Assembly: GCA_001600875.1 (NCBI GenBank)
Contig: BCLD01000014.1
Coordinates: 62,001-126,000 of the forward strand
DNA length: 64,000 nt
Reading direction: 5' to 3'
Source: Solicoccozyma terricola
Lineage: Eukaryota > Basidiomycota > Tremellomycetes > Filobasidiales > Piskurozymaceae
The notes under the pieces are model-generated. The model worked only from the letters and a program-made list of their open reading frames with translations. It had not been told where the DNA came from and ran no database searches. How positions within the stretch are numbered: position 1 is the first letter of the stretch; each line of letters starts with the position of its first letter. Positions 11,218 to 63,583 of the stretch are shown here, piece after piece. Position numbers and translations under genes: made by a program.

Positions 11218-12398
11218 CTACTCCTCGTCGGCCTCCTCGTCCTGGTCGACCTTGAAGTACTTGAGGGAGTAAGTATCGTGGGAAGTAGCAACGACACGGA
11301 GGAAGTTCTATTATAGCGATCGCCGGAAGAACAGGGGGGGGAAAAAAAAAAGCGATAAAAGTTCAGTGAAATCGTTACACCCCCAACGTCCCGCCACGAT
11401 TCCTCACCTCAAGCTGGTTCTTCTTGAGGTACTTCTTGGTGAGGTACTTGAGGTATCGCTTGGAGAATGCGATCTGGGAAGTAAGAACGAGCTTGGCGCC
11501 TGGTAGGAGGAAAACGAAGAAAAGCGAGGATCCAGTGTTAGGATATATGGCTTCGGTGGCAAAGTCGGGTACGGCAAGAGTCACGTGACGATGTGGAACA
11601 CAGTGCAAAGCCCAGTTTGGCTGCTGTCGAGCGAGCTTTCATAGGCGGTGTTCGCGGTGCTAGAAAAGAGCAAATGAAAACTCGCTGTACTCGCAAGGAA
11701 CATATAGCTCGCTACGCTCACGAAGACCAATAATGCTCGCTACGCTCGCTGGAGGCAGTATGCCTCGCTAACGCTCGGAACGAGTAGTATTGCTCACTAC
11801 GTTCGCGAAAGACAATGGTCTTCGCTCCGCGAAGCAATGAATGCTCGCTTCGCTCGCGAAGATAGTAGTGCTCGCTGCGGTCGCAGGAACAATTCTCGCT
11901 TCGCTCGCCAAGAAACTAGTGCTCGCTGCGCTCGCGAAAGAATGCTCTCTACGCTCGCCGAAAATACGCTCGCTCGCTTCGCTCGCTCGCCTCGCCGCCA
12001 ACTCACCCTCCCTCTTCAACACAATGTTCTCCCCCAATTGCCCTGGCTTCCCATCAACCTTGATCCTATCATGCAAAAACTTCTCAAACCCAGTTGGGTC
12101 AAAGACGTTATCACCTGCTGGGACTCCAAAGTCAACGATGAACTTGTGTGCGGGCTTGCCGACGGTTTTGGTGGAAGTGACCTTAGGCTGTGGAGTGGGG
12201 TATTCCCAAGTACGAAAGTCATAGCGAGAACAAGCAGGCGTTTGAACAAGAGCATGGTGTAAACGACGAGTAAACGAGACGAATCAAAACGAAAAAAGCG
12301 TTGTAGGTGAAAAAGGAGAATGAGAATAGAACGATTAGCAAAACGAACTACACAATCAGCCTCTCGAGATCCTGTCTCCTCTCGCCATTACGCACCAT
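11218..12398 (-). CDS. RPL22: 60S ribosomal protein eL22
   Basis: Ribosomal protein of the large subunit, 121 residues. Exons on the minus strand: 12396-12398 (ATG only), 12007-12187, 11408-11499, 11218-11307. The conserved core is clear: [33 protein letters not shown] and [17 protein letters not shown], then [16 protein letters not shown] and an acidic tail. The separate ATG exon is inferred from a good donor directly after ATG, the same arrangement as in the neighbouring RPS17. Intron 2 (11500-12006, 507 bp) is about eight times the usual size and is packed with the CTTCGCGAGCG repeat. The gene diverges from RPS17 over a shared promoter. In Cryptococcus neoformans RPL22 is part of the mating-type locus, which fits the SXI genes 3 kb away. 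Confidence 0.93.
11676..11997 (-). repeat. Intronic CGCGAGCGAAGCGAG repeat array (RPL22 intron 2)
   Basis: About ten degenerate units spaced 30-45 bp. In the sense of the RPL22 transcript they read CTTCGCGAGCGAAGCGAGCA (exact at 11842-11861) followed by ATTCATT-like sequence. CTTCG and CGAAG within a unit can pair as a short hairpin. The same exact 20-mer is present in the GLTP intron at 26813-26832. Confidence 0.85.
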
Positions 12399-12790
12399 AT
12401 CTACAGGATGATATCTTTTATTTGATATCGGTCTGCAAAATGAAATGATGTATGAGGTTTGTAGAGAGGAGTTCCTTCGGAGCAGCCGGCAGAGGAGGAT
12501 TAAAGAGGGGGGGGGAACAAAGTTCCAAAGAATGGATTATTTCACGTGCACCCTCCCCCCCCCCATCGGACTGCCTGAATCATTAACGCCGATACATCCT
12601 CTAGGGCCCACAGGCGGGGGGGTGGGTCCCAACTTAAGCGCACACCCATCCTGCGCTTATCCCTCGTTCCACAACTAAGCGCATTCCATTCCCTCCCCCT
12701 CCGCTATACCCAACTCGCACAACTCCCATCCTCGCCTTACCCACCCCCCCCCGCTTCACAGTCCTCAACACAGCAAATAATTCATTCATC
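12399..12790. promoter_or_regulatory. Divergent RPL22/RPS17 promoter
   Basis: 392 bp separate the two start codons. AAGCGCA occurs at 12636-12642 and 12677-12683, and its complement TGCGCTT at 12652-12658. The same triple arrangement is found before RPS5, so it may be a shared ribosomal-protein gene control element. C and G runs flank it. Confidence 0.6.
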
Positions 12791-14168
12791 ATGGTGAGTT
12801 GGACGTAGTAGATCGAGGGGGTGGGAATGGGGTACATTCGATGCGATGCGATGCGATGCGATGCGACTTTCTAAGGATGGATGGATGGAATGCAACCAAT
12901 GGACGGGGATATCATACGATACGATCGACAGGGAATGGGAATAGGACAATCATAAGAACAAGTACTCGCAGTAAGGAAAAAGGACATCAGGGAAAGATAG
13001 GGTGGATGCGAGAACATCTGGCGCATACCGATGATTGTTGCGATAGTTGTGTTGGGTGTTCAATCAACAGCTCGGAAGTGGAAGAGCTTAGAGAAGGGGT
13101 ACGATGTGAACCGGACGTTCGGCAAGGACGAATAGAAACCGAACCTCAAAAACCTGAAGGAGACACCAACCTACCTCGCACATCGCCACGGTGGGAAACC
13201 AGGACATCCCATGAACGACACAACCACCCATCATCTGGAAAGTACCGTATACTCTCCAAATACGCGCCACGACAACAGATCAACAGCATTCCCCGTAACC
13301 CTCATCGCATCGCATCATCCTCCTACCCTCCCACCTCACATAACCTCAACTTGACCCTCCCCACTAACACTATCTCGCCGTTTTCTTTTACTCAGGGTCG
13401 AGTCCGCACAAAGACTGTCAAGAAGGCATCCCGAGTCCTCATCGAGAAATACTACCCTCGTCTCACCCTTGATTTCCAGTGAGTGTATCTCAATACCCCC
13501 CCTCTTCCCAAACCGATGCAGAAGAGCGGTAGCTGATTGTGGTTTTCGGGGGATTTTGTGAAATAGCACCAACAAGCGTCTCATCGATGAGGTCGCTATG
13601 GTTCCATCTAAGCGATTGAGGAACAAGATCTCTGGTTGTGAGTGTGGATAACAGCAATCTTTCATGATTGAAGATGATAGCTGATGGAATGAAATGTCTT
13701 CTTTCGAATCGAATTCCTTTCTCCCATCTCGTCATCGTCTCTCCCATCCACAAACCTCTTACTCGTCGCTTTCGCTCCCTCGTTGCGCCGCTAGTCACCA
13801 CCCATCTCATGAAGCGAATTCAAAAGGGACCAGTCCGTGGTATCTCCTTCCGTCTGCAAGAAGAGGAACGAGAGCGTAAGGATCAATACGTTCCAGACGT
13901 TTCCGCTTTGGACCAAGGAGAGACTCCATTGGATGTTGATGCCGAGACCAAGGTGGGTTGGAAAGAAAGAATTATCCCAATTGCGTTTTTTCTTAGAGAG
14001 ATGGAAGTATTGATCAATTGCGCTCGCGTTTTGTTATTTTTTTCCTACCAGGCCCTCCTCCGATCCCTCGGTATGGACTCTATCCCAGTCAACGTCGTCG
14101 CCATCACCGGTCCAGAGCCAATCACTCGTGGTCCAAGGCGACACGTTCCAGGAGCCGCCACCGCCTAA
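12791..14168 (+). CDS. RPS17: 40S ribosomal protein eS17
   Basis: Small-subunit ribosomal protein of 143 residues. Exons: 12791-12793 (ATG alone), 13396-13478, 13567-13637, 13795-13952, 14052-14168. The protein begins [14 protein letters not shown], continues with [14 protein letters not shown] and [20 protein letters not shown], matching eS17 throughout, and ends HVPGAATA. The first intron (12794-13395) is 602 bp, typical of intron placement at the start codon in basidiomycete ribosomal genes. It contains a short CGATG microsatellite, and I saw no convincing snoRNA boxes in it. Confidence 0.95.
12839..12866 (+). repeat. CGATG microsatellite in RPS17 intron 1
   Basis: Five to six perfect tandem copies of the pentamer CGATG lie 46 bp after the ATG exon. 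Confidence 0.9.
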
Positions 14169-15030
14169 ATACCTTTTAATCTTTCTTACCGCAACTCTCT
14201 CTGCTACTCTAGACATCACACAAAACGTTTTATGGGTGGATGGATGGGTGGAGAATGGGAAGGGGAAGGAGGATGTGAAGGATGGGGGTGGAGGGTGCTG
14301 TATTCGTCGCGTATTACATGGGTTTATGCGATGATAGCAGTGACGAATTGAATAGCCAGGCCAGAGTCAGTGTATTGCAGCGAGTCCCCAAGTGTCCAGT
14401 GTCCAGGCCCCAAGTAGTCGCCAACAATCAGCATATCTCAAAGACGCGTCAATAATATCTCGACCGTTGAAAGGTTGGAACAGCGGTGGCAAGAGTGGCG
14501 AACGATTAATCGCTCGTGGAGATGGCTTGGAATCATCGATTCAATGTGCCCGGCCAAACATCCCTCGCCCATCCAAGACATCCGACCGATCACTCACTCG
14601 TTACTAGATACATCTTCCACCGCTCCAGTCATCTCGACGATCAATTCGGGTCTCTTCTATCGGTGAACAATTTTAGATAGCATGCATTAAGGTAACGGAA
14701 ATACAAAGTGGTTGGTGTTACAAGTGGCCGACGAATATGGATGGCTAGAAGAGATATTATATGGTGAAACAGTTCGGGATGTCACGACGTTGACAGCGAA
14801 GGTTTGGGAACCCGCCGTCGATTGCCGTAGAGTTGGAAGTTGTATGGAGGATAGATCCATCGAGAGTTAGTCGACACTAGCTTGCACCTGATCGACGTGG
14901 ATGGATGGACTTGTCTCAGCCAGCCATCGAACAGCGTTTGCCTGATGGAAGCAACACAGATCCTATCAGCATCCACAACCCTAGCATTCGGGTACACTTC
15001 CTTCAACGACTCACCGAGCTTTGAAACAAC
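14169..15030. other. Intergenic region between RPS17 and SXI1
   Basis: 862 bp between convergent gene ends. No conserved coding frame, RNA gene or repeat was recognised. Confidence 0.5.
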
Positions 15031-16665
15031 TCATGCACCAATCGCTGGTCGATCATCCATCTTGGGGATCTTCGTTCGTGGAAATATCGATATGGCCGTG
15101 GGTGGTTGTTTACGCTTTGCCGATATGACTTCACCCGGCGATTGGGATTTGGTTTCTTGAGGTTCGTTGACGGTGTTCCACACCGCTTGAAGACCCATTG
15201 GACCGTCGAATTGCGGCCAATCCTGTTGATATTCTGAATCATCTCGTTCGTTGAACACAGAATCGATATGCGGAAGGGGGACTGCCGAAGCGAACGACCA
15301 TTGTGATACTGAAGGATGATACGTACCCAACTCATTCCCAAACACAAATGGCGATAGAAGTGGTCCAATCGCCGGATCAAGCCATTCGGGTTGAGGGTCA
15401 TGGGGTAACGACTCCATGGATGGTTGCGATGAGAGAGTGGGTTGGAGATGGTATGAAGCGATGGACGCTGAGGAATGGGATGTCGAGGAGTTGTTGGAGG
15501 AGCAGGATGAGGTGGAGATCGTTCGAGCGGCGGTGATGCGAGGTGGTGAGGAAGAGAGGGAGGACCCGGAGGAAGTTGAGAATGAAGGAGTACGGCTGGC
15601 CGGCAGCTGTTGATAAGAGAATGATCCTGGGTTTGCGTACGACGTTCGATCGTCACTCGTACTCGAAATCTGCTGGCTCGTCGTGCTCGCAGAAAACTCG
15701 CGATGGTCCTGATCGTGAGTGAGTTGGAACTGGGACATGTGCGATGGGAAGGAGGGTGCACGATGACTCCCGAGAGAAGGTCGGATCTTCTTCCCGACAG
15801 GCTTATGAGACGATGTTTGAGGGACCACCTCGCTCTTCGATATGATAGCGGGTGAAAGACGAGGTCGTTTTGTCGATGTTGGATTGAGTGGGTGTCCATC
15901 CTCGTCTACAGCCAATGGTCTGGCGATGATCTTCAAAATATCATACCGGCCATCAGCACTTCATCACGAACGACCCCACCACCGTGTACCCACCTTCTCA
16001 ACCCAATCTCCCACTTGCTTCTTCTCCGCTCTCTTCAACCACTTAATAATCCCCATAATCGCCTCCTTCAACGTCTCATCCTCCTCCGTCCCATTCCACA
16101 CCCTCCTCACACAATCTCCCATCGCTCGCTTATCTCCTCTGAAATGCTTTCGGAGAACTGATGTGTAATTTGAGCGTCGTCGGATATTGGTGAGTGCTTG
16201 TCGGAAAACTTCACTGGTGAAGGATCCGTCGCGGATGAAGGTGGGGAGGTCGGATGAGAGGGGGAAGGGGTCGTCGAGGTGTTCGAGGAACCATCGGCGG
16301 AAGGGGACCATGTCGGAGTCACCTTGCAGCATGTTACAGTTTGATTGCGATACTGGAACGTGGACGCCGATGGCATTGCCTTGAGCTGATTCGCCCCTCT
16401 CATTCATGGCTATCACCAAGTCGGTGTCCATCTTGGAGATGATACCGTCAAGTTCCGGTTCTAGCTCTTGCATGGCAATAGAATAAACTTTCACTAAGCC
16501 AAGTAAAGAGTTGATCCAGTCCCTAGTATCGGCCTTCAAATTGACTGATCCTGTTCCTTCAATGAACTCTTCAACTTCGTTCATTGCTACCTCAAGTTTT
16601 GCAGGATCATGGAGAGAATGGTGCACCGATCTTTCTAACTCTAATAAGCGAAGTAGTTCTGTCAT
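15031..16665 (-). CDS. SXI1: HD1-class homeodomain mating-type factor (SXI1-like)
   Basis: Two exons (15994-16665, 15031-15930) encode 523 residues. The gene is divergent from an HD2 gene across 191 bp, the hallmark of basidiomycete homeodomain mating-type loci. An HD1 protein from one mate pairs with HD2 from the other to start the sexual programme in the nucleus. The N-terminal 110 residues form the allele-specific dimerisation region. A TALE-type homeodomain follows at about residues 120-172: FRRWFLEHLDDPFP covers helix 1 and the three-residue loop insertion, and ALTNIRRRSNYT is helix 3. The usual Trp-Phe before xNxR is Ala157-Leu158 here, while Asn160 and Arg162 remain. The C-terminal half is Ser-rich and disordered, with basic patches (TKRPRLSP, GKKIRP) that could be nuclear localisation signals. 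Confidence 0.82.
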
Positions 16666-16856
16666 CTTGTGTTGAAGCTGTTGGTGGTGATGGATGAAAA
16701 AGCTGTCGATATACTAAATATATAGGAATATATATGTATATTGTTAGAACAATAAGATTCGTTGATGGCCAAAGCTCGAACCTCTCCTAATGAAGTTCTT
16801 AGTTCTTTGGAAACTGCGTCTTCAATACCCACCAACCTCACAATCGCATATACATC
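16666..16856. promoter_or_regulatory. Shared SXI1/SXI2 bidirectional promoter
   Basis: 191 bp separate the two start codons. An AT-rich TATATA stretch lies at about 16710-16745, nearer SXI1. Such compact head-to-head spacing is typical of HD1/HD2 pairs. Confidence 0.6.
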
Positions 16857-18528: not shown

Positions 18529-18559
<31 letters not shown>

Positions 18560-19185
18560 GTGGGAATTGGTGGGATGCTCCTTTGGTTGAAGGAGATGTT
18601 ATCATGCAGATGGATGAACTTCTTCGTGAACCAACGGAGGGTTCAGAGTCTGCTACGTCTGCTGAAGGTCAATCACCATCTCGTCAAGTCGATGTCGTCG
18701 CGGACCACGCAACGAAGAAAGACGATGTCTTTACTACTCTCACGACAGACATCGTTGACCCACATCGATCACATCTCGAGCTCGATACGACACTCAGCGA
18801 AGATTTCGATTTCTCTTGGTTATCATTTGATACACTCCTAGGCTCAAGTCCATCTGAACCCGGGACTAACGATGATTATCAGGACCTACGACAAGTCTCC
18901 GATTCTAATCCTTCTCAAAACATCATTTCTTCTACGCAATTATCGAATCAAGAAGTTGATATAACCAATCAAAGCTTCATTCAACAATGGTATCCTGATC
19001 TATTGATTTCATCACCAACACTAAACAACATCGAATCGACGTCTGACGTTCCGAATATCGATTATTCAATGATGGATGATTCGTGGAATGTATTACCGTT
19101 CGCTGGGAGTCCGGATTTCGATGTTATGGAATGGCATGTAATGGAGAAGGAGGGGTTGGGAGAGGGAGAAGGGTTGGGTGTATGA
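16857..19185 (+). CDS. SXI2: HD2-class homeodomain mating-type factor (SXI2-like)
   Basis: Four exons (16857-17324, 17385-17489, 17577-17588, 17677-19185) encode 697 residues. After a 155-residue N-terminal part that should contain the dimerisation region comes a canonical homeodomain at about residues 157-207: AGYEETLQAAFRVNEKPTTT, then RHLKVPLKRITNW and FQNQRSRK. The recognition helix keeps the WFxNxR consensus. Exon 3 is only 12 nt and codes for ITNW; its introns split the helix between Lys-Arg and Ile and between Trp48 and Phe49. The C-terminal 500 residues are low complexity (Thr, Ser, Gly and Asn runs, including a CGACGA repeat near 18530) and acidic towards the end, compatible with an activation domain. 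HD2 assignment rests on homeodomain type and orientation. Confidence 0.85.
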
Positions 19186-19587: not shown

Positions 19588-21306
<1,719 letters not shown>

Positions 21307-24806: not shown

Positions 24807-24879
24807 GATTTCGACGTGCGGTGTGCGAATTATGTGTTCGTATGTTTCCAAGTGCACCGTGCAGCTTGAAAATATGTGT

Positions 24880-26068: not shown

Positions 26069-26179
26069 GATTTCGTCGTGCGGTTGTGTCAAGTAGGCTT
26101 TGTAGGTGTTCGTATATTCCGGGGTGCACCGCGTAGCTTGAAGATATCTATGAACGAGTTGTGGATTGGCGCGCAGAGC

Positions 26180-26646: not shown

Positions 26647-28023
26647 ATGACCACCGACAAGATCGATACGATGACTGGAGAACCTATTCCGTTCTATAAG
26701 ACGATCAAGATGGTGAGTGTGCACTGTGAGCGTAACGAGGACTGTGTCCGTTGAGCGGAGCGAAGAATGTCTCTTCTTGCGAGCGAAGCGAGGACTGCTG
26801 TCTTCTCTTCTTCTTCGCGAGCGAAGCGAGCACTCATTTTTCCCGAGCTTAGCGAAGACTACTTTCTCTGCGAGTGTAGCGAGCGATACCTTGTTCGCGA
26901 ACACAGTGAGCACTAGTCTCTGCATGCCCCACGAGCATTGCTCTCTTGGTGAACGTGGCCAGCACTGCTTCTTTTCGAGTGCAGTGAGCAATACTTCCTT
27001 TGTTGGTCTTCGTGAACCCAGCGAGCAGTACTGTATGGCGAGCGATATTCTTTGGCTGGGACGTATACCGAGCCATACTCTACATCTTCGAACCCCTACA
27101 AGACCTCCATGAACTGACGTATTCCAAACCCTTCTCCTTTCTTCTTGGCCATGTCCAACGTAGAACTGGAAAGATGTCCCGATAGAAGGAGGTATCCCAA
27201 CTGCTGAATTCTGTCTTGCAAGTGATGCTGTGGTTGATTTCTTTGGTGAGCGGGAGAAGCAACTCTTAAGACTACGTAAAACAAATCCCGACTAACTCGT
27301 GTTTTGGTTTCGATATCAGATCTATTCAGTAACCCTGCTTTCGCAGTGGTACAAAGCGATCTAAGTAGTAAATTGGCTGTTCGTACTCATACCCCTCTAC
27401 ACCTCTTAACAGGGACAGCAATACTAAACCCCTGACTTTTCCTCTCTCTCATTCCAATAGAAGATCCGAACTCGACTTGAACTTCATCCAGAGGAAGCAT
27501 CGACCATCGAGTCTATGCTAGCTCATGAGAAAAACGAGGAGCCAAAGCATGCTACTGGGAGTTTAACGTGGTTATGTCGGTGCGTTGTGGAATGCACCGA
27601 ATCCACAAAGTTCAAACTACTTGGCGCTGACGATTTGCATACGTCGGTAGAACATTGGATCTCATATTAATTGGATTACGTGAAAACCTTGCTAAACCAC
27701 AAGAGGAGATATCGACTTCCTTGACTCGTGCGTATGAGTTGACTTTAAAGCCATATCATCCCTATCTAGTCCGACCTGTGTTCTACGTGAGTTCTCCTCT
27801 CCTCACTTTTTCACAGACGAGCCTCTCAGGGAAAGCTGATCCGTGATCATTGCGGTGACAGCTCGCGATGAAAACTTGTCCATACCGTTCGAATTTTTAC
27901 CCTCGTTTGGGAACACCAACGGATGTCGTTCAAGCTGAATTGAAAGAATGGTTGGACGGACTAGATAGAGTGATAGTGAGGATGAAGGTCGTTTATGCGG
28001 AGGGAGGTTACGGGAAGATCTGA
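26647..28023 (+). CDS. Glycolipid transfer protein family member
   Basis: Cytosolic carrier that moves single glycolipids or related sphingolipids between membranes. Six exons (26647-26712, 27164-27245, 27320-27378, 27461-27579, 27651-27786, 27862-28023) encode 207 residues, the usual size for a one-domain GLTP. Family features: WKDVPIEGGIPTAEFCLAS, DLFSNPAFAVVQSDLSS with the lipid head-group Asp, the KHATGSLTWLCR block that carries the conserved Trp, and the LKPYHPYLVRPVF His-containing segment. Intron 1 (26713-27163, 451 bp) is filled with the CTTCGCGAGCGAAG repeat; the other introns are 75-85 bp. Confidence 0.88.
26745..27090 (+). repeat. Intronic CGCGAGCGAAGCGAG repeat array (GLTP intron 1)
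   Basis: About ten degenerate units in the transcript sense. The best, at 26813-26832, is CTTCGCGAGCGAAGCGAGCA, identical to the RPL22 unit, followed by CTCATTTTT. Later units decay (GCGAGTGTAGCGAGCG, GCGAACACAGTGAGCAC). Confidence 0.85.
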
Positions 28024-33801: not shown

Positions 33802-36800
33802 CTAAAGCATGAACGTCAATGGCTGCTCAAGGTACCCCTTGAATGCCTTCAACCACGTCGCACCAACAGCACCATCCACAGTCCTGTGATCACTGCTCAA
33901 CGTAGCCTTCATCACGCGTGCCACCTTGAATCCCTTCTCCTCCTCGGGAGCAGGCACGAGTCGGTCTTCAGTGGCGCCGATGGCGAGAATGCATGATTGA
34001 GGTGGGTTGATGATGGCGGTGAAATCGGAGATACCGAACATGCCGAGGTTGGAGATGGTGAATGTACCGCCCTGCAGTTTGCACGTAGCCCCGTCATAGT
34101 CAGTACACAGCTCTTCAACAACCCCCGGGACAAACGATCCCCACAACACCCACCTGGTACTCTTCCGGCTTCAATTTGCCATCCCTAGCCTTCGCAGCAA
34201 GCGCCTTGGTCTCAGCAGAGATCGATCCCAGACCTTTGGAACCAGCGTCTTTGATGATAGGAGTGATGAGACCGTTGGGGGTGGCAACAGCGACGCAAAT
34301 ATCCGCTTTCTTGTATCTGATGGTGGGGAGGGGGGGGGGGGGAAGGTTCATGTCAATAAATGCAAAGGCGCCGGCGCCAGAACACCACTCACTGCCTGAT
34401 GGTCTCGCCGAGCCATGCGGAATTTGCCTGGGGGACATCAGCAAGTGCCAATGCAGTGGCCTTGACGACTGTAGAAGTGCAGGCGAGAATTAGTAAACGT
34501 ATTCCGAGCTGTTGCCCGTTGACACCCACTAAAGTCGTTGACCGAAAGCTTGTTCTTGCCATCACCAGCCTTGTTGAACATTTCTCGAAGTTTCATCACT
34601 CGGTCTACACAGGAATCCCCCCGCCATCAGGTAAAGATCAGCTCTCGCAATCCACTACCGAAAACCCCGTCGTCATCCACATACCCATGTTAATCTCCAC
34701 AGTCAAGTAGTAATGCGGCAACTGCTGCTTGCTCTCCGTCAACCTCTTGCCGATCGTCCTCCTCATGCTCGAGACGGGGATGTCCTCGTACTCGGCAGCG
34801 GCGACAGGTGCGGCTTGGCCAGGGAGGGTGGACTTGCCGGCTGTTGGCTTGGCGGCGGTGGCGGAGGAGGCCTTGTAGCCTTCGATGTCGGCCTGAAGGG
34901 GGTGAGGATTGTCAAATTGTCAGTATGACGTCGAATAAGATGCCGAATTGATATGAGCCACATTCGGGGTATCATTCGTCTGATTGCGAAAGTCGAACGC
35001 TACTCATCTCGCACAATCGGCCGGGCCTCCCGAACTAGGGCCCTTAACTGCAGAACGCCGACTGTGCTTCGAGATGCACGTCGGACCAACGAAGATGCCA
35101 GTTTCGGCACAGTCTCCATGTCTCTTTTGATATGCTGACCGATCCTATGATATCTCGTCTGTTTCTCACTCCGTTCTCCCTCTTCCCTCTCCCTTCCGGA
35201 TGCGTCATCTCGTAATGGTCTTTCTCGCTCTGTCGTTATCACCCTCCCTCTCCTCTTCGCACTGGGGGATGAGGTAGGGGAGACTTTGGACTTGCCCGAC
35301 TTGCCCGAATCCCATTTCGAGCAAGAACTCGCTCTTTAAATGGGACCGTTCTGGACGGGTAGTCCCACTTGCCGCAACCTGACTGCTCACGATCTACTAC
35401 TCGCTCATATCCTCTCCTCTCCCCTCTCAAAACCCAACCCTCGTCACTCACCTTGACAATCCTACCCTCTGGCCCAGTCCCCTTCACATCCTTCAACGGC
35501 ACACCCCTCTCCAATGCCAACTTCCTCGCAAGCGGACTGGCAAAGAACGTCGGCCTGTCCTCGCCGTGCTCCTTGATCGGCGACTTCATCTCCTCTGTCC
35601 CACCACCCGCTCCGTACTTGGTCTGATCAGCAGGAGTCGCCAACGATGGGGTGACACCGGATGACTTTGAGTCAGAGGTGTCTTTTGGCTTTTCTTCGGA
35701 TTTGGGGGCGGCGGCGGCGGCGGCGGCGGCGTCACCTTCAGCGGCGAGTGCCTCGGCGCCTGACAGGTCATCTCCTTCTTCAGCGGTGATGGCGATGGTG
35801 GTACCGACTGGGACAGCCTTGGACCCGTCTTGGACCTGGACGGGTTGACGGAGATCAGCAAGATCCTGATCGGGGGTGACACCATCGCACTTACGAGGAT
35901 TTTAGCCATGACACCGTCTTCCTGAGCTTCGACATCCATGGTGGCCTTGTCGGTTTCCTGAATGGGAAGGGGAGGGAGGAGGTGGGTCAGCTTGAGAATC
36001 GTGACACATCATGTCCTCTCGCAACCACGACACCACCATTCGTTCACGGTTTCGGACAAAAAAGTCCACGTCTGAAACCACAACCAACAGAAGTCGACGG
36101 TGGTGCACCGGAGACTTTCTTTGATCGTGAATTCGGACATTAAAGATGCTGTTCGCAACGAACAGACGGGTGAACGCCATATCGCCCCAAACATCGAACT
36201 CAGGTCGCGCTCGTTGAGCTTGATGAAGGGTTTTTGCTTCCAATGATAGCCAAAAGCGAACCCTCCATACAATCGTAGAGTATTGCTCTCTGTTCTCGTT
36301 GAAGTGCAACTTTCTGCTCTAGCTGAAGGAAAGCACTCTACGCTCGTCGAAATGCATTTGGTGCTCGCTAGGGTCGCAAGAACGAAAGACATTCTCTGCG
36401 CGCGCAAGGCAATATTGCTCGCTCTGCTCGCGAAGAGCAGAAATGATTGCCCACTACGTTCGCGGAAGAAAGCTCCCTAAACTGGAGTTTGTCTTCGCTC
36501 CGGCGAAGAAATGGGGGTGCTCGCTTGGATCGCGAAGACATGCTCGCACGCAAACACGCTTCGCCTCGCACTTACAATTTCCAACAACACATCCCCGGCC
36601 TCAAAGGTCTCCCCTTCCTTCTTCTTCCAACTTGCAATCCCACCCTCCGTCATAGTGGGGCTCATCGCCGGCATTGAGAATTTAGTAAGAGCATGAGCTG
36701 GAGCGGAAGTTCGAAGAGCTGTTGGAGGTAACACCGATGCGAAACAGAATCAGCGCGAGTTTGGAACACGATGCAAATACCACTACCACCTACACCGTGC

Positions 36801-36969: not shown

Positions 36970-37056
36970 TGGGAGCGGACATCGGGGAGGGCGGACATGG
37001 GGCATGTAGCGGACATCGGGGAATAGCGGACATCAGTCACCGGTAATGTCCGCCCG
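36970..37056 (-). promoter_or_regulatory. Clustered GCGGACATCGGGG motifs upstream of LAT1
   Basis: Four direct copies of (A/G)GCGGACAT, most followed by CGGGG or GGGG, at about 36974, 36990, 37008 and 37025, plus one inverted copy at 37046. They lie 110-190 bp before the LAT1 start codon and read CCGATGTCCGC in gene sense. They could be a transcription-factor site array; no known factor is assigned. Confidence 0.5.
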
Positions 37057-39976: not shown

Positions 39977-41354
39977 TTACCCATAATCTTCACATGATTC
40001 CTCTGATACCTTCCCTCCCTTTGACGGCACACCTTGGCGACCGCCACTCTGAGACACCGTTGCCATCGCTTTTCTGATGGATTCACGGGAAGTGAGGGAG
40101 AAGGCGACATCCGAAAGGTAGAGAGGAGCTTGGATCATATGAATCGCCTTGAGAAACCCGCCAATTCCTGATGAGAGCTTGGGTTAGGATGATGCGCAAA
40201 GCAGAGCTGGCTGTCGTAACAACTCACCGGCACCCGCACCATGCAGTGATCGTAAGCACCACCTGGCAGAGTACGTACAGGAGATAACTGCGTATGAGAG
40301 ACATTGATCAAAGGCATTAAGAGAGACCCCCTTAGAATACACCTGCCCATAGCCCAGTCATCGCACCCCTCCCTTTTGCTCGAAACGAGGGAATAGTTGA
40401 TGAGCGATGTGATGCACAAGTTCATAGGTGGCTTTCATTCTCACCCCGTTATGAAATGTGGCAATGCCAAGCGTAGGGATGTCCGGGAAGATCGTATTGG
40501 CCGCCGCTGTAAGAATTTAAACGGGTGTCAGTGGGAACATGATGCGAATAGTAAGGTGGCTGCTCACACTATGATAACCGAAACAAATAGAGAGAGCTGC
40601 CCATAATTTCTTTCCGGTGAGCTGGAATATCGTTAGGTCAGATGGCGTCAATGCCGATGGGAAAAGTCAAGGGGACTCACTGTGTAGGCGGCTCGGTAGC
40701 CAACGGTAGCCAAAGTAGGCTTGAGAGCAAACAGTGACCGTGAACGTGAAGACGAAACTAGACAGCAGCAGATGAAGGGGTGATTAGTTCGAGGATCAAG
40801 GTTCGGTAGAGCTCGCTACACTCACAGCATATTAGTAGGGATGAGATCCGAGTTTTAGAATGTCTCGTAGAAATTTCGCATATCTTCAATGAACAGCGAT
40901 TAACCTCGACTCTACCCGGAGGTCAATGAGTATTCTGACATCCACTCACGGATGAGTGCCGCCGATTCGGCGTTTACCATCGACATCTGCGCAACAACGA
41001 CAGCGGACATGAAAGTTATCAATAACTTCAAGTACCACGGGTCGCTTCGACATCGGAGACAGTAGTTGAGGACCATCATCGCTGCAATGGAAGGTATGCC
41101 GGCTTGAAGAACAATATGTAAACGTGAAGGGTTAGGCGATTGGAGGAAGGGAATCGGAAAAGAATTCTATGCCAACGCGCATGACGTTCAATGGGGTCTC
41201 GAAGCTAACCTGTATGATGTTTGAGGATAGAGCACACGATGTCAGGATGGGGTTCATGTCGTCTTAGGTGCCGCCGCTTAACCCTTGAGACTTGAGGGGC
41301 AATGTTCGTCAGTGCATCCTCATTTGTGGTGTTTATCTGGGTAACAAACGACAT
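39977..41354 (-). pseudogene. Decayed tandem copy of the DUF6534-like gene
   Basis: Every region of the neighbouring gene has a counterpart in order: the MSFVTQINTTNEDAL start at 41354, FETPLNVMRVG, YCLRCRSDPWYLKLLITFMS, NFYETF, VCSQAYFGY, LTGKKLW and GGFLKAIHMIQAPLYL near the end. Two clear lesions are seen. The donor after MRVG, GTGAGT in the intact copy, reads ATAGAA here. In the exon after ALIR the codon aligned to Tyr of LYNQDLIS is TAA. The segment aligned to the TNSLIARLI exon is also scrambled. Splicing around the stop is not excluded but the combination argues for a pseudogene. Confidence 0.7.
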
Positions 41355-55000: not shown

Positions 55001-58000
55001 CTTCTACATCCAAAACACACAACAGAGACTGAAACTGGTGGCCAAAAACGTGCGTGTCATGCAGCAATTCATCATTGCCATGGAGCATGTGGCGAGCCGG
55101 TCCATCTGGTCCGGTCCCAACAGGTTCGCCTCTTTTGCGCCAATCCGAGTGAATGTTGCCGCCCAGTGGCTCGTCGATGGCCGTGACTACTTCTGGAATC
55201 TCAGTCGAGCTCTCAACATGGCAAAGAGTTGTGTGTACATTCACGACTGGTGGATCTCCCCCGAGCTATATCTTCGTCGACCCGGCAATGAGCGCTACAG
55301 GTTGGATAACTTGTTGAAGCGGAAGGCTGAGGAAGGAGTCAAGATTTACATCATCATCTACAACGAGGTATCAGACAAGACCACGCCAGTGGATAGCATC
55401 TACACAAAGAAGAGGCTCACTGGCCTGCACCCGAATATAATGGTGCAGCGATCGCCATCACATCTGCAGACGGGGACCTTTTTCTGGTCCCATCACGAAA
55501 AGATGTGCGTGATCGATGAGACGATCGCCTTCATGGGTGGTTTAGATCTCTGCTACGGCCGCTGGGATACCTCTCAACACATTTTGGTTGACGATGATTT
55601 TGAGTCTGGAGCCACAGGAGGAGACGGTCCTATTTGGGCGGGCAAGGACATGGCTAATGAGCGGGTCGTCGAGTTCAACACACTCAACAAGCCGTTCGAA
55701 GACATGTTCGACCGCACAAAAATACCTCGTATGCCCTGGCATGACGTAGGCTTGCAGATCGTGGGGCAACCGGCCAGAGATCTTTGCCGTCACTTCGTAC
55801 AACGATGGAACTTTTTGATGCGCACGAAGAATCACAAACGTGTCATGCCTCTCCTCCTGCCTCCAGCCGATTACACCGAATTCGAGCTACAGAAACTCGG
55901 TATTCAGGGGACATGTGAGGTCCAGATTTGCCGGTCGTGTGGCCCCTGGTCGATGGGCACCGAGAAGAAAATCGAACATTCAATTCAGCACGCTTATCTG
56001 AAAGGTACGCACCCGTCGAAACGCTGTTTACTTCTCATCTTCCGACGCCTGATGCTGTCTTTCACAATCCAGCCATTCAACTGTCTGAACATTTTGTCTA
56101 CATTGAGAACCAATTCTTCATCACGTCAACCGTTGTCGATAACGTTGAGATCGAGAATCGTATCGGTGATGCTATAGTAGATCGCATCATTCGTGCGCAC
56201 CAATCGAAAACGCCATGGAGGGCGTGTATCGTGATTCCATTACTGCCCGGGTACACCTTTCCAATTGACACAGCCGCTGCTAGCTCGGTGCGTCAATGTG
56301 GAGTTGTGCTTTCAAGCTTTCTGCTAATACCCGATTCGATTGGAACAGGTCCGTTTGATCCTTGAATGCCAGAATCGGACTATTTCTAGGGGCACACATT
56401 CGATCTTTTCTCGTCTTCGAGAAAAAGACATTGACGTGAGTGGATTGAGACCTGATTCTGCCTGATTATCCTGACGAAACTTTGAGGAGTAGCCCAACAA
56501 ATACATCACATTCTTCTCATTACGAGGGTGGGGCAAATTCAAGACTGGTGCGCTGTGTACTGAACAAGTTTACATTCACGGCAAGGTGAGCTGGATGCGT
56601 CTGTTATGCACGTCTGTACATGCTGAAGTATGGCAACTGTCCACAGACGATGGTTGTAGACGATCGTGAGCATTCCACTGATCACCCAGCACCACCGGAG
56701 CTGATCGCACCTTCTGACACAGGTCTGGTTATCTGCGGATCTGCAAACATCAACGAGCGGTCTCAACGAGGCGACAGGGACTCTGAGTTGGTTGCTGTTA
56801 TCAGGGATACAGATATGATTGACAGGTTGGTTTCAATCGTATTATGTCAATATCTCCTTCAATAAACTGACCGCCTTTCCGCTTCAGTACCATGGCAGGC
56901 AAGCCCTTCAAAGTTGGGCGCTTCGCACACACTCTTCGGATGCGCTTGATGCGTGAACACGCTGGAGTCGACGTTGATGCGATCGAGGAAGACCAGCTTA
57001 TGGATCGGCAACCCCTCGCGCCGCAAGACGAGATTCAGAAGTGGGACCCTGACCATGAGCAGGCAGAGGAAGACCATCCTACTGGAGTCACAAAGATCAA
57101 GCGTAGAAATGCAAGAGACAGAATGATGGTCACAGCGCAGAGTGCAATTTCGAGTGGTGAGTTCGCAAACAGGGCACTTTTCCCCCCAGCCGCGATTATC
57201 TGATTGCAGCTTTGTGAATCAGTCACCAAGGGTTTGAGTGAGAATGCAATTTCCAATGTCAAGAAGGGTGCCAATGTAATCATCAAGCCCTTGAGCCTTC
57301 TCAAGGAGCAGAAGAGCACCGCTCTCAACTCTGTGCGCAAGAAGCAGGGGGACGATCCTGAACGTCAAGACTTTGACAGGGACGGTGAGGTCACCGCTGG
57401 GTTTGCAAGCTCTATCATTCCGACGCTGGAGGAGCAAACCATCTTTGAACGACGACCATCACAGAAGCACGTGAATGGTAAACCACTCTTCGATGCAATC
57501 GACGAGGGCGAAGCAGACCAGCCCGACGGACAAGCTGTAGAGGAGGCAACCGTACCAAACGATGTCAAGCCGAAGAGCAAACCCAAACCAGTGGATGCAG
57601 ACCACGACAAGGGGGGCACATCATCAGCCGCCAAGATCTATCCTGACAATGGGGAAACGGAGCTTTATGGTGCGCCCGCAAACGCGACGGACGAAGATGA
57701 TGACCTACCGAACCAGGACACAGCGCGAGAGGATGATCAAGCGACTGAAGCGGAACAGAAAGCTGTCAAGGCAAGGCAAACCCTGCGAAAGCACCTGGCT
57801 GCGAACGTTGGAGTGTCACCGGTATGTTTTATTCCTAACTGATTTCCGTCTGAGATGGTTGAGGCTGACATTGCGCCGGTTTCTACAGTGGACGATGCCA
57901 ACCCCGACGCCCAAGATCGACCCCGACGCGTTCGTGGACCCTCTTTCTGAGGACTTTTGGAACAACATGTGGGTTGCTACGGCTGTGCACAACGTGAGTG

Positions 58001-58790
58001 AACCATGTCCTATCTGTGACGACCATTCGACTGACCAGTATGCTTTTCCGACAGACTGAGATCTTCAGGAAGGTTTTCCGATGCATTGTGAGATTCCATC
58101 TTCCCGACGCCTTGTGGTAGCTTGATTGCTCACTCTTACTCTCTCTTTATTCCTTAGCCCGATGACCTCGTCACCACCTGGGCAAGTTACAAGGCTTTTG
58201 CCAACCATACTGAGAAGTTCAACATGGTACCTCGAGACGTCGCCCCTGCCGGCCACGACGAGCCTATCAAAGTTGTCCACGGTGGTCCCGGAACCCACGG
58301 CGCCGGAGGTGGAGGTAGTGGAGGCGGTATCGTTGGTCAAGAAGGCGGTTCTCCTGATGAAGTTCGCCATAGCGAGAGTGAAATTTTCAATGGGCATCCG
58401 ACCACGGGATCGCAGAGGCACAGCGCTGAGGGGGAACAAGCGAGTGGTGGTGATAAGCATAGGAAACCGAGTGCTGCGGATGAGGCTTGGCATGATTGGG
58501 AGAAAGCGGAGATGGAGGTGTTGTTGCATGAAGTGAGGGGTCATCTAGGTGAGTCAAAACGGTGATGGGTGAGAGGGGTGAAATTGGCAGCTAAAGCGAT
58601 GTGCTGGGGTTGTCGACGTGATAGTGTTGTATCCTAATAGATTTCTGGAGACCGAGGATGAGGGTGAGTTTGAAACCATATGGAGACAACCTGGGCTCGG
58701 AAACTGATTTGCCGTGGATCATTCATTACGCCAGCTGATAATTTCTTGTTCAACGGCGACAAGATTCTACCACTGCCTATCTACGATTGA
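52059..58790 (+). CDS. SPO14: Phospholipase D1 (Spo14)
   Basis: Hydrolyses phosphatidylcholine to phosphatidic acid and choline; in yeast it is needed for prospore membrane formation in meiosis. Eighteen exons join in phase to 1872 residues: 52059-52925, 53010-53918, 53986-54112, 54172-54347, 54408-54647, 54714-56004, 56073-56287, 56349-56435, 56493-56585, 56647-56665, 56723-56825, 56888-57156, 57223-57821, 57889-57993, 58055-58087, 58158-58548, 58625-58663, 58735-58790. A long disordered N-terminus precedes a PX domain (FRIECQYGDGVVKWVIYRE), a PH domain (GYLKII, KWWIVRESYFVC) and the catalytic halves: first HKD motif HHEKMCVIDE, second YIHGKTMVVDD, with GSANINERS after it. HLVLYPNRFLETED and the C-terminal PIYD match the family. 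In Cryptococcus SPO14 lies in the mating-type locus. Confidence 0.95.
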
Positions 58791-59112
58791 TGAATTATCT
58801 TCTTTCTGCTTTTCTGCTATCGTAGTCTCATGTCACGACAGGCATCATTCACGTAGACGGGACGCATGTATGAGTAGGATCCCGCAAGGCATGTTTCTAT
58901 GTTTCTTGTTATCCATAGATTTGGATGCCGTCCACTTTTACCTGGTGCTGGGGTTGTTGACACCACGTGCCTGAATCCGGGGAATGCCAAGCATCGCTAG
59001 ATAGCATCCTCCGCCGCCATCCAGTGATATCTTCCCATCCTATCTCATTCATCAGCTGCTGTCGACCATGCTCACAGCCTATTCCACAGCTTGATCGAAT
59101 ACCATACTCGCC
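58791..59112. other. Intergenic region, LtrA-like gene promoter
   Basis: 322 bp between two genes on the same strand; nothing specific was recognised. Confidence 0.4.
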
Positions 59113-61873
59113 ATGCCAGAGGAAAAAGCAACTCAGTTCGGTCCGACATCTCATTTGGTCTACCACCAGGACTCGATTATAGATGAAACTCCGCCTCGAG
59201 GATGGAGATTGTTGGTGAGGAAGCCGATTGTTCGTCAGGTAAGTTGTAACGTCTGAAAATGAGCTGAATCACGGGGAGGTTATACGGTGCTTATCATTGC
59301 GCTTGTCTTTTCTACCGCCATTCAGTGGACGTATAGGGTACGCTGTTTCCTCGAAGATATCGTCGCGAATTCGCAAGCTGATAACATGTCCTGCGCACAT
59401 GATACGTGTAGGGAAAGCTGTAGGTTTCACAGCACAACTTCCTCGTCAGGATGATAATTGATCTCAATGAATACATCTAGTTATCGAGAAGCCGAAGAAC
59501 GAGTGCCTTCGCGTGTATGTCACCTCGTACTGGTCGGCAGAGCGCGGAAACTAACTGCAAGAGCCTACATATTCAGTTTGAATTATTCCTCGACCTTATC
59601 TACGTCTCGATCAGTGAGTGCCTGGTTGTAGGGAATGTGATGTGTATGTACACTTGGGCGTACTCATCGCTCTCGTCATACAGTCCATCAGCTTGGTAGG
59701 TCGTTTCCTGGCGCCTTGCAGCAAGTTTGACCGATAATCTCACCATCCATCCTTCGGCTCTGCCTCACAGCCGATACAGCGTCAGGTAAGTCCAGTCCCA
59801 TATATCCCACTGCGCCCCCCATCTGATAATTGTTTCTTCCCACAGAGACACCTACCGGAGCCTCGGTAGCTCGATTCGTACTCACGTTTTTCCCTTCCTG
59901 GTCGATCTGGTTGGATGCTAGGAATTTCTTCAATGTCTCCGGACAAGACGATGTTTTGTAAGTTCTTCATCAATTTGAGTGACTATCGAGTGCTGACACT
60001 TGCCGATAATGTTGGTTCAAAACAATTGTCACAGCCAGCGACTATGGATGCTAGTCTGCATCCTCTGTCTCGCGGGTTACTCCGTGAACGCATCAGCGAT
60101 TGGAACGAGCACAACAGAAGCAGCGAACGTAAGCGCTGCATTCGTTCAACGTGCTACAGATCCCGTTGAGGGTGCTACGACAGAGCAATCGGTGAATTTT
60201 GTTAGGGCGGCTGTGGCCTTCTTCTTGGTTTCGAAAGCGACGAGAAGTGAATACGGTCTATGACTAGATACATCCTGAATGACTGAAGCTGAAAATGTGT
60301 GATTACACTCAGTCGGTGGGCTATTGGCTTATGCATACTCGCTTCCCAAGTTCCGAAAGGCCCATTTGTCTATGGCGGCTCAGACGTTCGTCTGCACCGT
60401 GATCTATCTGGTGAGTTTAGTTCTTGGCATTTTAGCCACGCTGCTGACAGGGTTTGAAATCCCTCAGCCTCTTATCTGGGTAACATCGACTACAGCTCGC
60501 ATTGTCCTCGCGACCCTTGGAATCTTTCTCGATTACCTGACCAAGTATGCTATCGGTCTCGTTATCTTTCATGCGAGGAGACAGCTGCGGAAGGAGTCGA
60601 TGCGTTCTGATACGATTGATACGGAGACGGGTCGAGCAAAGGGCTTGAAGGGAGTAAATATCTCTGTTCATATACCTGGTGCGTATGCGACTGGTGGTTC
60701 TTTCCGCTTCAATATAGTTATCTATCAGTGCTAAACCTTTTCCCTGGTGATAGCAATCAATATCGAGCACAATGTGGAGCGTACATCTGCTTTCGTTATC
60801 ATAACTGTCAGTCTGGACGCTGTTCCTGACATGTTCATCATCTCATTTAACCTCCCCTTTACCATGGCAGTTTGGAGAAATGCTCGTCGGCGCCCTATAC
60901 AAATCGACAGCAACGGACATTGGGTTGCATCAAAAGTTCGGACGGATGGCTCTCATCCTCATGGTGGCTTTCTCGTTGAATTGGCTGTGAGTGGGCGTCC
61001 GAGTGGTGTTCGGGTTTTGCGATGACCGTGACAACTGGGCGGATAGCTGATCGGTATGTACCCTTCATGTGAATAGATATTTTGCTCCAACCGATGCTGT
61101 CAATAGGTAGGCATAGCCACTGGTGGGGCTTGGTGTTATTATTGGCCCGCTGACACTACGCACGCCCACTCGTTTGACAGCTACGAACACGCTCTTCGTC
61201 GGAATTGGTTTACCGCTTCTACATTCACTGCGTACGGTTGCGTCCACTTCAAGCGACGTAGCAGCACTCGCTAACAGCCCTACCCCGTCCTTCAGCCTTC
61301 ACTGGCCACTTTGCGCCTCCATCATCCTAGCCTCTTCTGCTGCCTCTCGGATGGTCAACAACGATACAGTTGTCGATGGATTGATGTGGTATTGGGGGGC
61401 AGGGATCGGAATGACGTTGGTTTGTGTGGTGGGATTGGACCTTTGCCATCGGAATATGGAGAAGGGTAATACGACAAAATTACCTAGGGTAAGTTTGGGA
61501 TTCGGAGCCTCACTTTAAGGGACGGAGACTAATGACCAATTGTCACCCCCAGCCAATTCGAATGACCTCTACCCTCGTCTGTGCCCTTATCTTCATCCTC
61601 CTCCCTCTTGCTTCTTCCCACCTCAATACCCTAGACATACTCTCCATCTCGGCTGGCATCCTAGCGTTCGCCGTATCATTTGATTTTTACGCGAGGACGT
61701 TTACAATCTCCACGCGCAAGGCGATGATGGTTGCTGAGTGTGAGATGAGGAGGAAGAGGGTGAGGGAGGAGGGTGTGGGTGTTGTTGAAAGGGAGGAAGA
61801 GGAGGGGTGGGGAAATAGAAGACAGACGGAGGGAAATGAGGACATGCATGGCGCAGATTTGGATCGGATTTAA
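59113..61873 (+). CDS. Low-temperature requirement A (LtrA) family membrane protein
   Basis: Multi-pass membrane protein of 570 residues. Sixteen exons: 59113-59238, 59326-59337, 59412-59419, 59481-59514, 59562-59613, 59684-59695, 59771-59785, 59846-59957, 60035-60246, 60313-60678, 60754-60806, 60871-60986, 61077-61106, 61181-61231, 61296-61488, 61553-61873. Joined, the beginning reads WTYR-GKLYREAEERVPSR-SLHIQFELFLDLIYVSI, the family signature, then IHQLADTAS, FPSWSIWLDARNFFN, a second half with IEHNVERTSAFVIITFGEML and a final block LHWPLCASIILASSAASRMV. The C-terminal tail is charged and cytosolic. LtrA proteins are of unknown biochemical function. Four of the first seven exons are 8-15 nt. 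The exon model is supported by homology and phase at each joint. Confidence 0.8.
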
Positions 61874-62433
61874 GGGCATTGAAGGGAGACGTGGGACAAC
61901 GACACGCAATCGTTCAGTCGTCGAGGACAGTTGGATTATAATGGCTGAAAGAGCAGAGGTTGAAATTTAGACAGCGTTGTAGAGCAAGCGCAATATGCGC
62001 AATATGCGCAAGGTGAAAATCTATAAAGAAATCAACGACAAGGAATCGATCGAAGATTGTAGCTGGTGTCCTGGAGGTGTACAGGAAGACAAAAGTGCAT
62101 TCGGAGTTATCGAGCCCGTAAATGACACGTTTGCCACTGACACATTGACACTTAGATTGTTTCGACGACTTATCGCAGTATCGCAGAAAAAGAAAAAAAA
62201 GAGTATTATTGAGTTATTATTTGATTAAGCTTTCGATTATAAGATGGAGAGAGAAACAAAAGAAAACAAAGAGTGCGAATGGCGAATGGATTGCAGAGAG
62301 ACTTTCGGGTTCTTGTGCATTTGTTTCTGTGTCAAAATCCATCTCCCTTCCGTGAATAGGATCCGCACCTTCTTCCCTTGCCATGCATGCGCCGGGGTCA
62401 GAGGGATAGAGACGCCCCAGTTCATTCGTGCAC
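61874..62433. other. Intergenic region between convergent genes
   Basis: 560 bp. A short AATATGCGC tandem repeat occurs near 61990-62010 and an A-rich stretch near 62190; no gene was recognised. Confidence 0.4.
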
Positions 62434-63583
62434 TCAAGCAGAAAGAGGACCAGACATCTTGTCTCCATTTCTAATCGATCGAGTACCGAGTAAAATGACG
62501 ATGAAGAAAGTGACAGTGAGGAGAATCCTGCGCCATCCAACCGGGACAAAGAAACAACGTGAGCGGTTCCATCCGGAATGCACGGAAGTAGATCGACTAA
62601 GAAACCCACCACTCGATCCAAGCGAAAGCCAACGCTGCCATGTTCTGATTACAGTATGTCAAAACTGTAGTACCACAGTTGACACCACCGTCGAGCATAT
62701 GAGTGATAGAACCGGCTAATGCTGTCCAAAAGACCCAACTGTGATAGTAGGATGCAACCCAGTATATGATTAAGTGATTTTTGGCTATTGAAGAGAGGGA
62801 AAGTGGGGACTTACGTGATGAACAACCAAACCGCATGTGCAGCGATGGAAGAGATTATTCCACCGGAGCCCATAAGGAAAATGATGATGAACATGGCGGA
62901 GAAGACTACGGTCCACCACGAAACGAAGCTGTATGAGACAAAGGGAGAAAGTCAAGACAAAGGGAGAAAGAGGGTCAGCAAATTGTCCATATCAAAACGT
63001 CAAACAGCGTAGAACTGGTATTGCACGCTCTCCCTCGCATAGCGCAGCATGACACTTCCTCTCCGTCAGAGAGAGTGCATGACTGGACAACTCGATTTGG
63101 CTCGTGGAAGACAGACGGCAATCCTCGGTATGCTCGACGAGAGAAAATCTCGCTTTCGCATGTGTTCGCCGCGGAAAGGCAATGGTCTGCTCCGCAACGA
63201 AATGAGTGCTCGCTGCGCTTGCAGAAAGATATATCCTTCGCTCCGCTCAGGGAGGAGGAAATGAGTGCTGGCTGAGCTCGCACGAAGAGGCATTCCTCAC
63301 TCGGCTCAGGTAAGAACTGCTGGGTCCGCTCGCGACACTCACACTCCAAACCTCAGAGTATGCTTGAAAGTGCTATTCGGATACGAATTATGTTCATTGT
63401 ACTTGCCCACAAGGAACGAGGTAATGCATCCCTGGATGATCGCGAACAAGCATAGGAGACCGAAGACGACTGTTTTGGAGGGTGGTAGAGATCGGACGGA
63501 TGAGCATCGTACGACTGTGAGACAGGAAGTAGCGATGACCTACTCGGATGACCTCGACGGACGTGGGTGTCGATATCAGGCAT
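62434..63583 (-). CDS. MARVEL-like four-helix membrane protein
   Basis: Five exons (63553-63583, 63343-63514, 62815-62928, 62610-62738, 62434-62527) encode 179 residues with four hydrophobic segments: VVFGLLCLFAIIQGCITSFL, WWTVVFSAMFIIIFLMGS, a segment around WVFWTALAGSITHML, and AFAWIEWILLTVTFFIVILL. The pattern, with Cys-containing loop (NCGTTVLTYCNQ) before helix 4, matches fungal MARVEL-domain proteins that sit in membrane microdomains. Intron 2 (62929-63342, 414 bp) contains the intronic repeat array; the other introns are 38-76 or 82 bp. Confidence 0.75.
63010..63342 (-). repeat. Intronic CGCGAGCGAAGCGAG repeat array (MARVEL gene intron 2)
   Basis: Degenerate units in the sense of the MARVEL gene, for example GCAAGCGCAGCGAGCACTCA near 63205-63225 and GCGAGCTCAGCCAGCACTCA near 63258-63280. 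They are more diverged from the exact 20-mer than those in RPL22 or GLTP but keep the AGCACTCATTTC extension. Confidence 0.75.

Follow-up and report, generated by a model that had tools for sequence, protein, structure and literature searches.

Tandem arrays of a small conserved hairpin, mostly on the sense strand and close to the 5' splice site, in introns of the yeast Solicoccozyma terricola

The bacterial REP/BIME elements and the end hairpins of IS200/IS605 are extragenic and are moved by Y1 transposases. In Caenorhabditis elegans, the PATCs are intronic and occur genome-wide in expressed genes, and they consist of A/T-phased DNA, being neither hairpins nor strand-bound. The known signals of intron-mediated enhancement are, to our knowledge, short dispersed words or the act of splicing and not a covarying tandem hairpin, and we know of no report of d(GCGNAGC)-type hairpins, which come from chemistry and aptamers, as genomic intron arrays. 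Fungal introner-like elements reportedly exist as near-identical whole introns in hundreds of copies (PMC4457414), intron gain by repeat expansion in Cryptococcus is described as involving duplicated introns inside one gene (PMC2395259), and promoter-proximal introns are described as stimulating transcription in yeast (PMC8287100). Here we report tandem arrays of a 15-nt hairpin unit in introns of the basidiomycete yeast Solicoccozyma terricola, which we analyzed in a stretch of 64,000 nucleotides (contig BCLD01000014.1, C14:62001-126000; hereafter the window) and throughout the 23.9-Mb, 33-contig genome. We found no description of such arrays in the open-access library searched.

Within the window, the arrays occupy one intron each of RPL22, GLTP, LAT1 and a MARVEL-domain gene (Table 1), as a sequence-only reading of the stretch had noticed. 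The 20-mer CTTCGCGAGCGAAGCGAGCA, sought with up to three mismatches, has seven matches in the window compared to 0.01 expected, all of them inside the RPL22, GLTP and LAT1 introns and none in the MARVEL intron, and the exact 20-mer reported for two of the genes is found at 11842-11861 on the minus strand and 26813-26832 on the plus strand. A covariance model of the unit yields 18 window matches at E < 0.001, 17 of which are in the four host introns on the transcribed strand, in agreement with the transcript-sense orientation described earlier. The remaining match is a lone copy outside these introns, at 40807 on the minus strand, which starts with GTGAGT and may be the 5' end of a putative short intron. 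The four introns have the lengths reported (414 to 618 nt) and every one runs from GT to AG. All four are oversized, as had been claimed, but only three of the eight introns of at least 300 nt predicted in the window host an array (the MARVEL intron is not among the eight).

Comparison with the described systems reveals partial likenesses. Like the introner-like elements of Dothideomycetes and like introners, the arrays are present as many sense copies in introns of unrelated genes; unlike these, the introns have in common only a hairpin array behind the 5' splice site, in any copy number and followed by unrelated 3' parts. The likeness to REP/BIME and IS200/IS605 consists in dispersed arrays of small imperfect hairpins that are readable on one strand, and the likeness to PATCs in a genome-wide intronic sequence feature, which here is made of strand-bound hairpins. 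As in intron-mediated enhancement, the placement is promoter-proximal, sense and orientation-bound, and by analogy the arrays might affect expression. The loop and closing pair of the unit are of the class of d(GCGNAGC) mini-hairpins and d(cGNNAg) tetraloops, and its opposed G·A pairs likewise stand in a Py-GA-Pu context.

The repeat is spread across the genome, and the four window genes are only a few of its hosts. The 19-mer CTTCGCGAGCGAAGCGAGC has 103 exact copies in the genome and two variants have 132 and 101, compared with 0, 1 and 0 copies of the mirrored patterns. Among the matches listed from seven pooled searches there are at least 521 places, which include overlapping matches to one copy, in at least 187 loci (96 plus, 91 minus), many of them a single exact match; among the same matches, 105 of the 106 clusters with two or more places are confined to a single strand. 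The window, which was picked by the finding itself, and three arbitrary 9-kb stretches make up the sample not picked for arrays, while most loci were fetched on account of an exact 19-mer. With four arrays in the 64-kb window and none in the three 9-kb stretches, our rough guess for the genome total is several hundred to about 1000 arrays.

The conserved fold is a 15-nt stem-loop, G-C-[GA]-R-C-(GNA)-G-Y-[GA]-G-C, accompanied by a pyrimidine-rich linker. From the outside inward it has two base pairs, two opposed G·A pairs, two further base pairs and a GNA triloop, and the units follow one another at a spacing of mostly 27-28 bp, with 22-23 and 33-34 bp also represented. The strongest dependence between unit positions links 9 with 15 (0.64 bits; G with C or A with T), followed by dependences between neighbouring linker positions. 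When copies were taken only by the unpaired letters G7 A8, A13 and G16 A17 (375 sense and 45 antisense copies), pairing in the sense copies was kept in 86.9% at 5-19, 92.0% at 6-18 and 94.1% at 9-15, compared with 73.6, 85.9 and 77.1% after shuffling (z from 10 to 16), and no comparable excess appeared for shifted pairs. Pair 10-14 is kept in 94.4%, with too little variation for a test. A 66-row alignment, from which 10 of 76 sampled units had been dropped by hand (six near kept rows and four poor hairpin fits), has 94.3% of cells paired compared with 85.0% in shuffled alignments and 7-42% when slid, and 29 cells are changed on both sides compared with 7.9. Genome-wide, with copies exact elsewhere, pair 9-15 is G-C in 532 copies, A-T in 234, G·T in 19 and A·C in 22.

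Within GARC..GYGA, 290 of 331 triloops are GNA, and loops of 2, 4 and 5 nt occur only 5, 7 and 2 times. The letter at position 12 varies freely between nearly invariant neighbours, and it still does so when a single half of the unit serves as the anchor. Of 352 copies that have the four pairs and a GNA-type loop, 263 carry GA/GA as the opposed letters, and in 30 copies from 19 arrays the G·A pairs are swapped for Watson-Crick T-A/C-G pairs (TC/GA). RNAfold returns ((..((...))..)) for the A-, B- and D-type 15-mers and no fold for the reverse complement of the A unit. The hairpin originally proposed, CTTCG-CGAG-CGAAG, fares much worse: its pair 3-12 is found in 43.5% of the 375 copies compared with 36.3% after shuffling (z 4.0, falling to 2.3 among 314 distinct copies), the excess is weak at 4-11 and 5-10 (z 3.0 and 2.7), and there is none at 1-14 and 2-13, so that we rejected it. 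A coding origin was also considered, as the variability at positions 9, 12 and 15 is like that of third codon positions, and was rejected because the spacings do not keep to multiples of three (of 265 spacings, 118, 91 and 56 leave remainders of 0, 1 and 2). Reversed-sequence matches number 154, and since the unit is nearly mirror-symmetric this control is unsuited. A search of the window against Rfam 15 at the gathering score gave no matches.

A second hairpin, GCTCCC(GNNA)GGGAGC, shares the arrays and, in the stretches that were read, is confined to them. It was read at 21 sites, every one by an array and in array sense, with a GNNA loop in 20 of the 21, and a genome-wide count of the GNNA form gave 76 copies. 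The second hairpin comes after the Watson-Crick variant of the unit 15 times, compared with 2.5 expected.

Orientation relative to genes was assessed for 52 clusters (33 + 13 + 6), with introns called by a self-trained gene finder without RNA-seq, which merged some genes, and with doubtful loci read by eye. Among the 39 clusters that the finder placed in introns, 37 are sense (34, plus two in L045 and one in L047) and two are antisense (L025 and L046), so that the claim of an invariable sense orientation does not extend to the genome as a whole. Eight further clusters are sense by eye (L011:3536, L016, L017:4734, L020, L037, L038:282, MARVEL and L048), mainly because a donor directly precedes the array or a coding exon lies before it; as these were read on the strand of the array itself, they are not an independent test of orientation. 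Three clusters adjoin runs of N, perhaps repeat-caused assembly gaps or masked stretches, and are followed by an exon in sense orientation, which the finder predicted for L035 and L036 and which was read by eye for L030, where the finder has a plus-strand gene nearby. At L017:7604 the cluster consists of one weak unit that falls within a predicted exon, and the last of the 52, in L044, may be intergenic. Among the genome-wide matches listed, one cluster, C6:1125251-1125546, is of mixed strand; antisense transcripts are possible at the antisense and mixed exceptions.

The arrangement of neighbouring clusters, counted among the matches listed and without gene models, points in the same direction. 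Opposite-strand neighbours within 3 kb are divergent rather than convergent by 12:1 (p = 0.003), and by 10:1 within 1.5 kb, 13:2 within 5 kb and 17:6 within 10 kb, an excess that is expected for 5'-proximal sense introns flanking promoters on both sides. In the readable sample, confinement to introns in sense orientation is borne out by these counts for most arrays, with one array, in L044, remaining unplaced. Both genes of a divergent pair carry arrays in L010, L011, L013, L023, L027, L038 and at eight further places, which by a rough reckoning is more than the low per-gene rate would lead one to expect. Local copying across divergent promoters was considered and rejected, as the members of six partner pairs resemble each other no more closely than random arrays do (94th, 65th, 43rd, 39th, 36th and 4th similarity percentiles); shared promoters rather than local copying may explain the co-occurrence.

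Statistics of position were obtained from 35 array introns with at least two units. The median distance from the 5' splice site to the first unit is 15 nt (range 3-150), whereas the last unit ends a median of 170 nt ahead of the 3' end of the intron, the scored units becoming sparser toward that side. The predicted intron rank is 1 or 2 in 28 of the 35, and some of the high ranks stem from merged gene models. Two or more sense units are present in 0 of 624 introns shorter than 200 nt, 3 of 48 introns of 200-300 nt, 7 of 26 of 300-450 nt and 25 of 31 of at least 450 nt, in regions most of which were chosen because arrays are present. The donor is GTGAGT in 28 of 35 array introns compared with 240 of 689 introns (p = 2e-7) and with 20 of 66 non-array introns of at least 200 nt; the looser form GTnnGT is found in all 35, compared with 479 of 689. 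Among 30 intron tails there were no cross-hits at E 0.01 and hence no common 3' flanks.

The hosts give the impression of a mixed set of housekeeping genes. A Pfam family was matched by 18 of the 20 host proteins or protein fragments submitted: eL22, GLTP, 2-hydroxyacid dehydrogenase, SEP/UBX, guanylate kinase, AhpC-type peroxiredoxin, ICln-like Voldacs, TruB, S12/S23, MARVEL, ubiquitin-conjugating enzyme, NUBPL-type P-loop NTPase, exportin, Arf, RNase PH, C2H2 zinc finger and LSM14, with radical SAM below the cut-off. Two had no Pfam match, one being the product of the L025 gene with the antisense array (RecA-like by eye).

Table 1. Introns, arrays and individual units in the window (positions counted from its first nucleotide)
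Feature	Position	Strand	Details
RPL22 (eL22) intron 2, host of array 1	11500..12006	-	507 nt, GTGAGT...CAG; host Pfam Ribosomal_L22e 3.9e-42
Array 1	11680..11986	-	10 scored hairpin units, e.g. 11843-11857, 11921-11935
GLTP intron 1, host of array 2	26713..27163	+	451 nt, GTGAGT...TAG; host Pfam GLTP 2.7e-38
Array 2	26726..27026	+	9 scored hairpin units
Hairpin type copy GCGAGCGAAGCGAGC, consensus A-type, in array 2	26817..26831	+	
LAT1 (pyruvate dehydrogenase E2) intron	35958..36575	-	618 nt, GTAAGT...CAG
Array 3 (LAT1 intron)	36333..36533	-	5 scored units, more degenerate
Solitary unit-like match GTGAGTGTAGCGAGC, in none of the four host introns	40811..40825	-	19.6 bits, E 6e-4
MARVEL-domain gene intron 2	62929..63342	-	414 nt, GTGAGT...CAG; Pfam MARVEL 6.2e-09
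Array 4 (MARVEL intron)	63123..63333	-	6 scored units

The type copy in array 2 has the pairs G-C and C-G, the opposed G·A and A·G, the pairs G-C and C-G, and the triloop GAA. In RPL22 the first 23-nt unit begins 16 nt downstream of the 5' splice site, and in the MARVEL gene the first hairpin lies about 9 nt downstream of it. The LAT1 and MARVEL introns were read by eye and their ends then checked, as the gene finder picked a different acceptor in the former and overlooked the latter. The coding sequence directly preceding the 5' end of the LAT1 intron reads ...VLLEI, and the host was assigned by homologues. The first named relatives listed, from Naganishia, Kwoniella, Papiliotrema and Cryptococcus among other Tremellomycetes, share 62-71% identity, and metagenome proteins reach 75-76%; LAT1 thus places the fungus among the Tremellomycetes.

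Other repeats are present in and around these loci. A 63-bp tandem repeat in three copies, by eye unrelated to the arrays, lies just downstream of RPL22 (10859-11048), and an 18-bp tandem repeat (minus strand ATGTCCGCT...) lies upstream of LAT1 (36974-37034); a motif resembling the latter, ATGTCCGCTCC, occurs in L044 downstream of the array. The window also contains poly-C tracts at 1512-1593 (82 bp) and 2121-2184 (64 bp), and C-runs were also seen in L011 ahead of a start codon, in L022 where an intron ends, and inside L025. Two degenerate arrays are very long, measuring by eye about 1.3 and 0.8 kb, each within a single intron; they are found in L038 (minus strand, in the gene for a ubiquitin-conjugating enzyme) and L048.

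The arrays are conserved in structure, strand and place, and we infer that the folded form matters on the sense strand. We propose, with a probability of roughly 0.45, that they represent a structure-selected sense-strand element, most probably acting in the nascent pre-mRNA, close to the U1 site, in promoter-proximal introns. The nascent transcript is the likelier site because the arrays adjoin the 5' splice site, which is a signal in RNA. The hairpins would form there next to the U1 site and could provide a multi-copy platform for a putative factor that helps the 5' splice sites of long introns to be recognized; alternatively, the factor might influence elongation near the promoter, or expression, much as an expression-enhancing first intron does. 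Local tandem duplication would alter the copy number, while selection would keep the units foldable and in one orientation. A function at the RNA level, which was among the suggestions made from the sequence, is favoured by the sense strand and by the adjacency to the 5' splice site, but it is not proved, G·U and A·C being equally rare at pair 9-15.

Several observations weigh against this proposal. The arrays at L025:4720-4937 and L046:1396-1476 are antisense in predicted introns, the array in L044 may be intergenic, and the 20 host proteins show no common pathway. Two of five measures on the 66-row alignment do not rise above shuffles (pairs changed on both sides, 3 compared with 2.0; pair types, 6 compared with 5.1), and the compensatory changes may go back to few ancestral events common to subfamilies. 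The full 20-nt A-type unit folds otherwise in RNAfold (2-6/14-18, -5.3 kcal/mol compared with -2.1 for the fold of the 15-mer), the A- and B-type 15-mers fail to adopt the proposed fold under DNA parameters, and the folding energy of the arrays is only slightly below that of shuffled sequences (mean z -0.62; antisense 0.05); the folding programs may have no terms for GNA loops. The third base of the tetraloop in the second hairpin is a pyrimidine in 71 of 76 copies, unlike in RNA GNRA loops. As a test of RNA against DNA, the comparison of G·U with A·C leans in opposite directions, with no preference for G·U genome-wide at pair 9-15 but 64 G·U compared with 39 A·C across four pairs in degenerate copies. 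The displaced non-template strand stays a candidate for the folded molecule, given that G·T and A·C are equally rare, that the folding energies are modest and that the loops fit DNA classes.

These last points bear directly on the possibility that the arrays are an intron-resident selfish mobile element with the hairpins as its recognition structures, which we regard as a serious though rather doubtful competitor. Such an element could spread through single-stranded DNA, in the manner of REP or IS200 on the displaced non-template strand, or through RNA by reverse splicing or lariat reverse transcription, and would survive mainly in introns and in sense. Exact units common to many loci are what mobility would leave behind, pair 9-15 shows no preference for G·U over A·C, and the loops fit the stable DNA class d(cGNAg) with a C-G closing pair. 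The core of the A-type unit, GCGAAGC, is the classic ultra-stable DNA mini-hairpin, the loop of the second hairpin fits the stable class d(cGNNAg), and sheared G·A pairs follow the Py-GA-Pu rule. The d(GNA) triloops are described as preferring a C-G closing pair, as RNA GNRA loops do (PMC5815330), and extraordinarily stable hairpins with related sequence are described as well (PMC10527192). Nevertheless, of the two hallmarks of REP/RAYT and IS200/IS605, the structure-conserved imperfect hairpin is present here while the Y1 (HUH) transposase was not found: the genome has no match to PF01797, which matched in 5 of 14 control genomes. A search for the Rep/helicase of Helitrons gave no matches, but no control matched either; viral contigs searched with one 27-base pattern and phages searched with the RPL22 intron gave no match. 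Mobility would further have to be reconciled with the lack of shared flanks and with standard DNA folding parameters that do not yield the A and B fold, and it is not evident why a DNA element would begin at the 5' splice site yet stop a median of 170 nt short of the 3' end.

If the arrays were instead a neutral minisatellite, an old repeat copied among introns by ectopic recombination and expanded by slippage, their sense orientation and position would be side effects of selection that acts against cryptic splice sites in the opposite orientation. The copies are indeed head-to-tail with a period of mostly 27-28 bp, local higher-order duplication is obvious in L016, L017 and L035, scored units thin toward the 3' side, and the units hold splice-like words (GTGAGC in the B-type) that a stem could hide; the covariation, too, possibly comes from few events carried by subfamilies. 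However, neutral decay should strike positions alike, yet position 12 is free between nearly fixed neighbours, changes at 5, 6, 9, 15, 18 and 19 preserve pairing, and pair 9-15 is wobble or broken in 41 copies genome-wide and paired in 766. Since the strand and structure to which a minisatellite would be indifferent are both constrained here (37 of 39 sense; covariation), we consider this explanation unlikely. Less probable still is the introner-like mechanism suggested by the sequence-only reading, in which whole introns would be gained as copies of one element carrying the array and a 5' splice site. The multi-copy, sense occurrence in introns of unrelated genes and the strong GTGAGT at the 5' edge of the arrays agree with it, but end-to-end similarity is missing: the 3' halves are not shared, the lengths of introns (203-887 nt) and arrays vary, and intron tails that share nothing are not those of copies of one intron, so that whole-intron mobility was rejected. 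In its available text, a survey of introners in 175 genomes names Pezizomycotina as the only fungal group (PMC9860276).

The preferred reading of a structure-selected sense-strand element would make the arrays a previously undescribed class of intron element, a suggestion we advance tentatively: tandem, structure-conserved GNA-loop hairpins, sense-bound and abutting the 5' splice site, with a co-transcriptional role in splicing, elongation or R-loop control. Taken jointly, and put forward just as cautiously, the class would be present in promoter-proximal introns of perhaps several hundred or more genes of a basidiomycete yeast, and may spread via the same single-stranded state in which it folds. 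The known rules for introns that affect expression, or for long introns that are well spliced, are mostly a matter of short degenerate words, whereas here one foldable module is apparently reused in very many introns, as an element that can be counted and reversed. Such a module lets one ask why first introns matter and how signals come to be read one way. If the arrays were a selfish repeat, the repeat would be of a kind that settles in introns in a single orientation yet does not make entire introns.

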